From NCBI GenBank assembly GCA_902582235.1, contig CACHQX010000003.1:62001-126000 (forward strand): a DNA stretch of 64,000 bases, given 5' to 3'. Under the pieces are notes generated by a model that was not told the origin of the DNA, did no database searches, and saw only the letters and a program-made list of their open reading frames with translations. This document shows positions 31,664-34,054 of this stretch, piece after piece (position 1 is the first letter of the stretch; each line of letters begins with the position of its first letter). The DNA comes from an uncultured Pelagibacteraceae bacterium. Lineage in GTDB: Bacteria; Pseudomonadota; Alphaproteobacteria; Pelagibacterales; Pelagibacteraceae. Position numbers and translations under genes: made by a program.

Positions 31664-32320
31664 ATGCAAAAATACGACTTTATCAAATCTACTTTTGACT
31701 TCTCAAATGCTCCTATTAAAAGATTTGTTAAAATCGAAAAAAAGGAGGATTTACTTAAAAAACTTAAGGACGAAATCTCTAATATTGAAAATTGCACTCT
31801 AAAAAATAATTCAAACAATTTAGTTTTTGCTGATGGTGATCATGACAGTAGTATTATGTTGATAGGTGAAGGCCCTGGTCAAAAAGAAGATGAACAAGGA
31901 AAACCTTTTGTGGGCGATGCAGGCTTACTTTTGAATAAAATGTTAGCTGCAATAAATATTAAACGAAATAAAGTTTATGTAACAAATATAGTAAATTACA
32001 GACCACCTGGAAATAGAAAACCTAATGAAGTTGAGATTAATACTTATGCTCCTTTTATAAAAAAACATATTTCAATTATAAACCCCAAGTTAATAATATT
32101 ATTGGGAAGCACTGCTATGGAGGCTTTTTTTGGAAATAAGGAGAAAATTTCTAAATCAAGAGGATTTTGGAAAGAACTAATTGTTAATAACAAAACTTAT
32201 TTAACTATGGTTACCTTCCACCCTGCTTATTTGTTAAGACAGCCAGATCAAAAAAAATTTTCTTGGGCAGATTTAAAAGAAATAAGAAATAAAATTGAAG
32301 AATTGAAAATTGGAATATAA
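31664..32320 (+). CDS. Uracil-DNA glycosylase, family 4-like, lacking the usual Fe-S cysteines
   Basis: This 218-residue protein would remove uracil from DNA. It has the family-4 motifs: GEGPGQKEDEQGKPFVGDAG (68-87), VTNIVNYRPPGNRKP (106-120), LGSTA (147-151) and HPAYLLRQP (186-194). Family-4 enzymes normally hold a 4Fe-4S cluster through four Cys, yet only Cys44 is present here; the positions after VTNIV and before PFI are Tyr112 and Tyr128. The cluster is therefore probably absent. The 3' end overlaps the rnhB TTG start by 11 bases. The family call is good; activity is inferred. Confidence 0.85.
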   Translation: MQKYDFIKSTFDFSNAPIKRFVKIEKKEDLLKKLKDEISNIENCTLKNNSNNLVFADGDHDSSIMLIGEGPGQKEDEQGKPFVGDAGLLLNKMLAAINIKRNKVYVTNIVNYRPPGNRKPNEVEINTYAPFIKKHISIINPKLIILLGSTAMEAFFGNKEKISKSRGFWKELIVNNKTYLTMVTFHPAYLLRQPDQKKFSWADLKEIRNKIEELKIGI

Positions 32321-32894
32321 ATCTCAAAAAAGTGTAGCTGGGGTGGATGAGGTCGGTAGAGGTAGTCTTATTGGGCCTGTATATGCAGCGGCAGTAGTTT
32401 TTAAAAAAGGTTTTGATAAAAAGAGAGTAAAAGACTCAAAAAAATTATCTCCTAAGGAGAGAGAATTTTTGGAAAATTACATAAAAAAAAATTCTTATTG
32501 GGCTATTGGGACTGCTTCAAAGAAAGAAATTGAAAAAATTAATATTTTAAATGCATCTCTTTTGGCGATGAAAAGATCAATTTTAAAATTAAAATTCAAA
32601 CCACAAATAGTAAAAGTTGATGGAAATAAAAAACCTAATATTAATAACTTAAATATAAAATCAGTTGTTAGAGGTGACCAGAAAATTCCTGAAATTTCTG
32701 CAGCGTCTATTTTAGCAAAAGTCTCAAGAGACCGATTGATTAGAAAGATATCAAAAAAATTTAAAGCTTATTTGTGGGATAAAAATGTAGGCTACGGGAC
32801 TAGAGATCATCTTTCAGCAATTAAAAAATTTGGAATTACAAAACATCATAGAAAAACATTCAAACCAACACACAATATATTGAGTCCCAAATAA
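32310..32894 (+). CDS. rnhB: Ribonuclease HII
   Basis: RNase HII removes ribonucleotides and RNA primers from DNA. The 194-residue protein starts at a TTG (32310); no ATG lies upstream of the conserved AGVDEVGRGSLIGPV, which holds catalytic Asp13 and Glu14. Further motifs are DSKKLSP and PEISAASILAKVSRD with the remaining acidic residue region. It begins 11 bases inside the UDG gene and is followed by the methylation-site-rich ccrM promoter region. rnhA is also present at 48154. Confidence 0.95.
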   Translation: MEYKSQKSVAGVDEVGRGSLIGPVYAAAVVFKKGFDKKRVKDSKKLSPKEREFLENYIKKNSYWAIGTASKKEIEKINILNASLLAMKRSILKLKFKPQIVKVDGNKKPNINNLNIKSVVRGDQKIPEISAASILAKVSRDRLIRKISKKFKAYLWDKNVGYGTRDHLSAIKKFGITKHHRKTFKPTHNILSPK

Positions 32895-32932
32895 TCGAAG
32901 GCACAATTAATCAAAATTAATTCAATCATGAG

Positions 32933-32961
32933 TTGACCTGGACTCCGACCTAGAGTCTAAT
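32933..32961 (+). promoter_or_regulatory. Predicted ccrM promoter containing two GANTC methylation sites
   Basis: TTGACC (32933-32938), a 17-base spacer and TCTAAT (32956-32961) each match the sigma-70 boxes at five of six positions. GACTC at 32941-32945 lies just after the -35, and GAGTC at 32953-32957 runs into the -10. A third GANTC is at 32882-32886. The downstream gene encodes the enzyme expected to methylate GANTC, so autoregulation by methylation is plausible. The predicted start is about 7 bases before the ATG. Confidence 0.6.
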
Positions 32962-32974
32962 TGTTTCTTTTAAA

Positions 32975-34054
32975 ATGAGAGAGTTAGATTTAAAAAACAA
33001 AATTATTAACGGAGACAGTCTTAAAGAATTGAAAAGAATTCCAGATGAGACTTTCGATTTAGTTTTTGCAGATCCGCCTTACAACCTTCAACTAAAAAAT
33101 AAACTAACTAGACCAGATAGATCAAAAGTTAATGCAGTAAATGATAAATGGGATCAATTTGAAAGTTTTAAGAAATATGACGAATTCACATATGCGTGGT
33201 TAAGTGAGTGTAAAAGAATTTTAAAAAAGAATGGAGCAATCTGGGTTATAGGAAGTTATCATAATATATTTAGAGTTGGTACAGCTATTCAAAATTTAGG
33301 GTTTTGGATTTTAAATGATGTAATTTGGAACAAAAAAAATCCAATGCCAAATTTTAGAGGGACAAGATTTACTAATGCTCATGAAACTTTAATTTGGGCT
33401 TCAAAATCAGAGAATTCAAAATATACTTTTAATTATCAATCATTAAAATGTTTGAATGATGATTTACAAATGAGATCTAATTGGGATTTGCCCATTTGCA
33501 ATGGAACAGAACGTTTAAAAAAAAATGGAAAGAAGGTTCATTCTACACAAAAACCAGAAGCTTTACTTCATAGAATTTTATTAGCAACTTCAAATAAAGA
33601 TGATTTAATTCTTGATCCATTTTTGGGATCAGGCACAACTGCAACGGTTGCAAAAAAATTGAGTAGAAATTATTACGGTATAGAAAAAGAAAAATCCTAT
33701 TTCAAAGCTGCCGAACAAAGATTGAAAAATACAAAACCAATAGAAGATCATTATTTAGATACACTTAAAAACAATAAATCCAAACCAAGAATACCTTTTG
33801 GTTCACTGGTTGAATTGGGAATAATTAAGCCTGGCACTATTATTTTTGATAATAAAAAGAAAATCAGTGCAAAAATTATGGTTGATGGGAGTATCAAACA
33901 TGCTCAAACTGAAGGTTCAATTCATAAGGTTGCAGCTACAATTTTAGGAGCAGAAAGCTGTAATGGATGGACTTATTGGCATTGCGAATTAGGAAATACT
34001 TTCGTGCCAATAGATAATTTAAGACAAAAATTCTTGTCAAAAAGTTACCTATAA
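32975..34054 (+). CDS. ccrM: CcrM-type adenine-N6 DNA methyltransferase (GANTC)
   Basis: CcrM methylates adenine in GANTC and controls cell-cycle genes in alphaproteobacteria. The 359 residues match the Caulobacter enzyme in length. The order is that of beta-class methyltransferases: DPPY at residues 33-36 (FADPPYNLQL), then the target-recognition region, then the SAM-binding DPFLGSGTTATVAKK (about 213-227). A C-terminal domain of about 80 residues (IPFGSLVELGIIKPG onward) is the RAMA-like extension typical of CcrM. No restriction enzyme is adjacent, which fits a solitary regulatory methylase. GANTC specificity is inferred from family. Confidence 0.94.
   Translation: MRELDLKNKIINGDSLKELKRIPDETFDLVFADPPYNLQLKNKLTRPDRSKVNAVNDKWDQFESFKKYDEFTYAWLSECKRILKKNGAIWVIGSYHNIFRVGTAIQNLGFWILNDVIWNKKNPMPNFRGTRFTNAHETLIWASKSENSKYTFNYQSLKCLNDDLQMRSNWDLPICNGTERLKKNGKKVHSTQKPEALLHRILLATSNKDDLILDPFLGSGTTATVAKKLSRNYYGIEKEKSYFKAAEQRLKNTKPIEDHYLDTLKNNKSKPRIPFGSLVELGIIKPGTIIFDNKKKISAKIMVDGSIKHAQTEGSIHKVAATILGAESCNGWTYWHCELGNTFVPIDNLRQKFLSKSYL

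Follow-up and report, generated by a model that had tools for sequence, protein, structure and literature searches.

How might a SAR11 bacterium time the production of a likely GANTC methyltransferase whose predicted promoter carries the target of the enzyme itself? What is known of ccrM control comes mainly from Caulobacter, in which the gene is driven by CtrA. The locus considered here lies in a window of 64,000 nucleotides (the whole stretch of DNA that was analysed), part of a SAR11 genome with a 995 kb assembly, in which it occupies 62001-126000 of contig C3. The nearest named relatives of the window by CcrM, among the best 80 of 581 relatives, are Pelagibacteraceae. An initial annotation had assigned the driven gene to the GANTC methylases, and this assignment is borne out by the Pfam domains N6_N4_Mtase and RAMA and by a match to a PDB chain named CcrMI (6pbd) at E 7e-137, which place the product among the CcrM-type enzymes. 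GANTC sites in the promoters of Caulobacter ccrM and other cell-cycle genes are already known (PMC2217572), and GANTC is reported to be enriched between genes (PMC3973325). In a further study, methylation control reportedly could not be derived from counts of GANTC in 500-bp upstream windows, and the wording there suggests that the group holding Pelagibacter also lacks CcrM and GcrA (PMC2877005). That apparent absence does not hold for the genome of the window, which encodes both proteins.

The predicted ccrM promoter

A predicted core promoter, TTGACC-N17-TCTAAT, is found at 32933-32961 between rnhB and ccrM, in agreement with the initial annotation, and its 17-base spacer occupies 32939-32955. 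The parts of the promoter and its surroundings are as follows, with conservation counts that refer to 106 distinct promoters from genus g1 and a set of named loci.

32310-32894, forward strand: rnhB (ribonuclease HII), the upstream neighbour of ccrM, by open reading frame and Pfam
32882-32886, forward strand: third GANTC (GAGTC), within the last bases of the rnhB coding region; not fixed in position among relatives
32921-32936, forward strand: TTCAATC and the half-dyad TTCAA-N7-TTGA, overlapping the -35 hexamer; TTCAATC in 104 of 106 promoters
32933-32938, forward strand: predicted -35 hexamer TTGACC; GTTGAC in 106 of 106
32941-32945, forward strand: core GANTC site 1 (GACTC), in the -35/-10 spacer, at +8 from the first T of TTGAC
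32953-32957, forward strand: core GANTC site 2 (GAGTC), at +20 from TTGAC, overlapping the -10 box
32956-32961, forward strand: predicted -10 hexamer TCTAAT; found in 106 of 106
32975-34054, forward strand: ccrM, predicted GANTC adenine methyltransferase of 359 aa (Pfam N6_N4_Mtase and RAMA)

Site 1 had been described as following the -35 box immediately; the site is present, although two bases separate it from the hexamer. The described overlap of site 2 with the -10 box is exact, as the last two bases of GAGTC are the first two of TCTAAT, and the third GANTC also exists, with 46 bases rather than 47 bp between it and TTGACC. The hexamer TCTAAT is still there in L049 and L072, two named loci without site 2, and an alternative -10 box for ccrM may be TAATTG at 32958-32963. 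Between the -10 box and the first ATG lie only 11-15 bases in the 106 promoters (13 in the window, 32962-32974), from which a ccrM leader of about 6 nt is predicted. The same gap, in 22 genomes of the class-wide sample described below, spans 6-11 bases in eight and at least 22 in the other 14.

The register of site 2 bears on the quality of the -10 box. All 22 genomes of the class-wide sample with site 2 at +19 have A at +24 and T at +28, which with a 17-base spacer would give a -10 box of the form CANNNT, where the C at -12 is the C of GANTC by construction; site 2 appears there as if fused to the -10 box. The genus of the window places site 2 one base further on, at +20, and its box TCTAAT keeps the T at -12 and loses the A at -11. 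Judged from these letters, either register would give up one key -10 base to the methylation site.

The TTCAATC block is one base off in each of the two remaining promoters of the 106. The motif as such is not enriched in the window (6 against 4.2), and TTCAATC with TTCAA-N7-TTGA could possibly be the site of a second regulator. NtrX is a conceivable candidate for TTCAA-N7-TTGA, although the seven-base spacing does not fit CAAN2-5TTG, its site as given in PMC9223101. By eye, genera g2, g3, g4, g8 and g10 instead carry a TTCAA-N7-TTGAA dyad near the -10 box or the start.

Chance, conservation and specificity

GANTC, which the initial annotation had expected to be rare from base composition, is avoided in the window: 87 sites are present against a shuffle mean of 178, an approximately two-fold under-representation, and 100 of 100 shuffles hold at least 87. 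The further claim, that three sites within 76 bp are statistically striking, did not survive. When 87 sites are placed at random, at least one triple within 76 bp arises in 30% of placements (P about 0.30), and 60% contain one or more pairs whose starts are no further than 12 bp apart, by which significance from local density alone is ruled out. The arrangement exceeds chance because it is conserved at fixed positions, and not because of the count.

This conservation was followed through 159 distinct ccrM upstream regions of Pelagibacterales (171 before identical ones were removed), a set weighted such that 106 of the 159 come from genus g1 and the named loci, the latter being the best 80 of 581 relatives. 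Both core sites are present in 113 regions, one in 33 and none in 13; thus, 146 of 159 keep at least one. The gap between the two sites is six bases in 89 regions and seven in 24, equivalent to 11-12 bp from start to start, or about one helical turn. Site 1 leaves its N free (GAATC, GACTC, GATTC and GAGTC all occur) and slides from +7 to +10, while site 2 is held at +19 or +20. The 106 promoters of g1 and the named set can all be anchored on TTGAC and TAAT, and contain three invariant or near-invariant blocks, namely TTCAATC, GTTGAC and (G)AGTCTAAT. Among sampled genomes of the sister family f2, whose ccrM is 57-62% identical, the layout is the same in other letters, as exemplified by TTGACCTC-GATTC-TATTTT-GAATC-ATATTA. 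The two core sites are therefore conserved beyond the neighbouring sequence in this alignment of SAR11 ccrM upstream regions, an outcome on which the initial annotation had staked its proposal.

Departures from the pattern are also found. One core site is kept in genus g16 (3/3) and others, and among the named loci two lack site 2 only (L049 and L072) and three lack site 1 only. Genus g9 has neither core GANTC in all eight sampled genomes (L145, L150, L151, L154 and L156-L159), each of which has ccrM and gcrA and keeps TTGAC with a TAGTCTATTCT-like box (TAGTTTATTCT in L159); g9 is thus a natural control without core GANTC. A quick ccrM tree with 81 rows, one for the window and the others for the 80 named loci, requires at least six changes of site-1 state and two losses of site 2, and with so few changes much of the agreement may reflect shared descent. 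The third GANTC, which had been counted with the core, is loose in position over the 159 regions: in 23 instances a GANTC starts 51-54 bases ahead of TTGAC, and in 73 the distance is 23-25 bases. For a further GANTC, the start is exactly 24 bases from TTGAC on the upstream side in 69 instances within the same set of regions.

Beyond this order, the layout was sought in the class, identified as Alphaproteobacteria by the named relatives. A ccrM match was obtained in 179 of 241 class genomes, and the sample comprises 60 genomes of 59 other families (two from one family), chosen from those with listed coordinates. Approximately 400 bp upstream of ccrM were fetched per genome, and the tests covered a 301-base slice from every one. 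Of the 60 slices, 48 contain TTGAC, against a shuffle mean of 15. Site 1 (+7 to +10) occurs in 29, site 2 (+19/+20) in 26, both in 19 and either in 36, compared with means of 0.29, 0.125, 0 and 0.415 and maxima of 2, 2, 0 and 3, respectively, in 200 shuffles that preserve dinucleotides, though not phylogeny. Site 2 lies at +19 in 22 genomes and at +20 in four. Twenty of the 60 fit a strict form of the dual pattern, for which 300 shuffles gave 0.017 on average, and 24 of the 60 have neither site in register. GANTC is concentrated at a third place as well, 14-17 bases ahead of TTGAC (21 instances). Because 19 of 60 genomes of other families have the layout in front of ccrM, it is not a SAR11 oddity; it is a widespread ccrM promoter architecture, and the suggestion of a special, minimal SAR11 device is not sustained.

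The strict dual pattern occurs somewhere in 173 of the 241 class genomes. Among 150 listed matches, 94 fall in 43 genomes where the place of ccrM is known, and 22 of these, each in a different genome, precede the ccrM match by 30-146 bp. Other matches among those listed lie just upstream of DivIC/FtsB-like genes (L318, L323, L324, L327, L328 and L344; Pfam was searched with three of the six proteins, and one of them fell below the cut-off). These promoters resemble that of ccrM in having TTGAC and two GANTC sites 6-7 bases apart, and differ in the second site, which is at +21/+22. By eye, the strict pattern also lies near two ctrA-like genes of other class genomes (L340 and L341, among the matches listed).

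The whole genome of the window contains a single match to the strict dual pattern, to which the ccrM promoter conforms. The looser form TTGAC-N0-20-GANTC is not enriched genome-wide (38 matches, compared with 92 for the reversed control), such that the genome gives no sign of a larger regulon built in this way. A genome-wide promoter class was rejected: among 30 of the 38 loci looked at, ccrM alone lies outside an open reading frame with a gene close downstream. One other match (L208) is doubtful, being 74 bases ahead of a gene and inside a 113-aa antisense open reading frame, and another (L206) is in no open reading frame of at least 90 aa and has no gene within 150 bases downstream. The motif GAGTCTAAT occurs nine times and its control seven times; of the nine, the copy at ccrM is alone in having TTGAC in the preceding 70 bases. 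The 150 bp upstream of gcrA (L001) contain no GANTC in this genome, in contrast to the gcrA promoter of Agrobacterium, for which six in 250 bp are reported.

How the sites may be read

GcrA, the established reader of methylated GANTC in promoters, had no place in the initial annotation. Several features of GcrA/CcrM-dependent sigma70 promoters come together at this locus. GANTC lies in the -35/-10 region of a predicted promoter of the sigma70 type, and the genome encodes CcrM as well as a GcrA (E 1.7e-39) with DNA-binding and sigma-interacting domains. This GcrA contains the stretch GGVTRNAVIGK, identical to that of the PDB GcrA 7ye1 and which we take to be the recognition helix, and its C-terminal sigma-binding part aligns. 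Of 197 family genomes, many of them incomplete, 172 yielded a gcrA match. The window sites, GGACTCC and AGAGTCT, do not match the extended Caulobacter motif YGAKTCG (or YGAKTCK); GcrA targets in Brevundimonas are likewise reported without the extension (PMC7987155), and thus YGAKTCG does not define the GcrA family across the class.

Our preferred explanation, to which we assign a probability of roughly 0.5, is that the two in-register core GANTC sites constitute a replication-coupled switch read by GcrA, through which CcrM limits its own transcription, in line with the methylation-sensing autoregulatory switch that the initial annotation had suggested. The -10 box has two key bases on its upstream side; with one of them yielded to GANTC, RNA polymerase would need help at this promoter. 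Passage of the replication fork would leave the promoter hemimethylated, whereupon GcrA, held to sigma by its C-terminal domain, would dock on methylated site 1 and transcription would start. CcrM would then remethylate both sites, including adenines inside or next to the -10 box, and the promoter would become poor again, whether by wider GcrA coverage, direct hindrance of sigma or both. The outcome would be a short pulse of CcrM per replication, with CtrA not required.

Studies of related systems lend this explanation its shape. In Caulobacter, GcrA is reported to be a dimer in solution and to bind methylated GANTC, covering ctrA P1 from -35 to -10 and beyond when the DNA is fully methylated, and only about 12 nt near -35 when it is hemimethylated on one strand (PMC3667746). 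Caulobacter ccrM, for its part, is reported to be transcribed only from hemimethylated DNA (PMC2217572). Cultured Pelagibacter had 3477 of 3482 GANTC sites fully methylated, and growing cultures displayed an origin-terminus methylation gradient, the direction of which is worded inconsistently in the source and is interpreted there as lower near the origin (PMC9516812). Together, the footprints, the hemimethylated Caulobacter ccrM and the Pelagibacter gradient suggest a promoter that is open while hemimethylated and closed after remethylation. We observe the sites, how they are kept in register and conserved, and a gcrA gene; we infer that the ccrM promoter is active, that its sites are methylated, that GcrA binds there and in which direction the response goes. 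One timing class of Caulobacter promoters is reported to be marked by a GANTC placed between -10 and -35 (PMC4287350). The unstructured linker described between the DNA-binding and sigma domains of GcrA (PMC7403470) fits a sliding site 1 with a fixed site 2. The explanation is weakened, however, by genus g9, which has gcrA and ccrM but neither site in 8/8, by the 24 of 60 class genomes without either site in register, and by the poor fit of the window sites to YGAKTCG. It is weakened further by Caulobacter ctrA P1 and CCNA_00697, which are reported to stay fully active with GANTC mutated despite GcrA binding (PMC3667746).

These active mutated promoters, along with sites that persist where GcrA was not detected, make a direct effect of methyl-adenine a serious rival, albeit one that we consider unlikely on balance. 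Methylation at site 2 would itself hinder sigma70, and CcrM would repress its own gene without GcrA. The rigidity of site 2 relative to the boxes in the class sample agrees with such sensing. The Agrobacterium gcrA promoter in E. coli expressing CcrM is a reported precedent (PMC11514494), and in Brevundimonas 14 presumed direct CcrM targets are up without ccrM, all of them outside the GcrA regulon (PMC7987155). Eight genomes of the class sample of 60 gave no GcrA, since a search relaxed to E 10 returned matches below the family cut-off only (best E 0.02). Of these eight, three retain both sites and one more has site 2, compared with 16 of 52 genomes with GcrA that have both and 32 of 52 that have either, and no association is apparent in these counts. 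The three cast doubt on a strict need for GcrA, but the six-frame search behind these counts can miss divergent proteins, and gcrA and ccrM are reported to be generally co-present or co-absent (PMC3885167). Direct sensing would also leave site 1 and the sites further upstream unexplained. The placement of site 1 in the spacer, like that in GcrA-dependent Caulobacter promoters (PMC4287350), is accommodated by plain positive feedback, in which methylated sites recruit GcrA, ccrM stays on and a methylated cell stays methylated. When GANTC was changed to GCNTC, several Caulobacter promoters that depend on GcrA reportedly lost 60-80% of their activity, and without CcrM neither MipZ nor PodJ accumulates (PMC3667746). 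Such feedback has no off step and no tie to replication, and the published timing of Caulobacter ccrM is hemimethylated-on (PMC2217572); we regard it as improbable.

It is less probable still that the GANTC words are retained for some other reason, such as the site of a third protein or a sigma preference, with methylation incidental. TTCAATC before the -35 box is more invariant than site 1, as this would allow, but site 1 keeps G, A, T and C, frees N and slides by 1-3 bases, which is the signature of a methylase target, and GANTC is otherwise avoided in the window. Least probable of all is a CtrA-driven promoter as in Caulobacter and Sinorhizobium. CtrA is reported to bind and activate the ccrM promoter of S. 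meliloti (PMC4433202), and the window does have TTAA-N6-TTAA at 32907-32920, but this form is found in only five of the 106 promoters of g1 and the named set (the window included), and PMC2877005 reports Pelagibacter to be without ctrA. The CtrA box proper, TTAA-N7-TTAA, was rejected, being absent from all 106 and rare in the class (4/60), and CtrA control of ccrM is unlikely here.

Known systems and biological meaning

The Caulobacter sigma70 promoters that depend on GcrA (mipZ, podJ and ctrA P1) likewise have GANTC within or next to the -35/-10 region in a genome that encodes GcrA and CcrM. The present promoter differs from them in that the target is ccrM itself and that two sites with starts 11-12 bp apart are involved, the second overlapping the -10 box. 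The ccrM promoters of Caulobacter and Sinorhizobium serve the same gene, and the former shares the hemimethylated state proposed here for transcription; they are activated by CtrA, whereas here there is no conserved CtrA box and the GANTC pair is inside the core promoter. At the Agrobacterium gcrA promoter, six GANTC sites in 250 bp similarly cluster at a gene of the methylation circuit and methylation represses, although the gene is a different one and the reported effect occurs without GcrA (PMC11514494). The open literature searched yielded no description of ccrM core promoters with a GANTC pair at fixed positions, although earlier notice of it is possible.

A broader and more tentative proposal, which we hold to be possible and well short of probable, is that the ancestral alphaproteobacterial ccrM promoter was a band-pass switch that reads replication. 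GANTC would have crippled its -10 box, GcrA on the spacer GANTC would have rescued it only during the hemimethylated interval behind the fork, and CcrM would have shut it off; in SAR11 ccrM control would still consist of nothing more than this bare core, and CtrA in Caulobacter would be a later layer.

If the target sites of the methylase are held in register with the -35 and -10 boxes in many families, direct feedback by methylation would be both ancient and general in this epigenetic system. The promoter is also compact enough for site-by-site measurement of the effects of un-, hemi- and full methylation. For SAR11, hugely abundant marine bacteria reported to lack CtrA, it provides a testable answer to how DNA methylation could be timed. 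If the switch is true, CcrM would throttle its own production according to the re-methylation state of freshly copied DNA.
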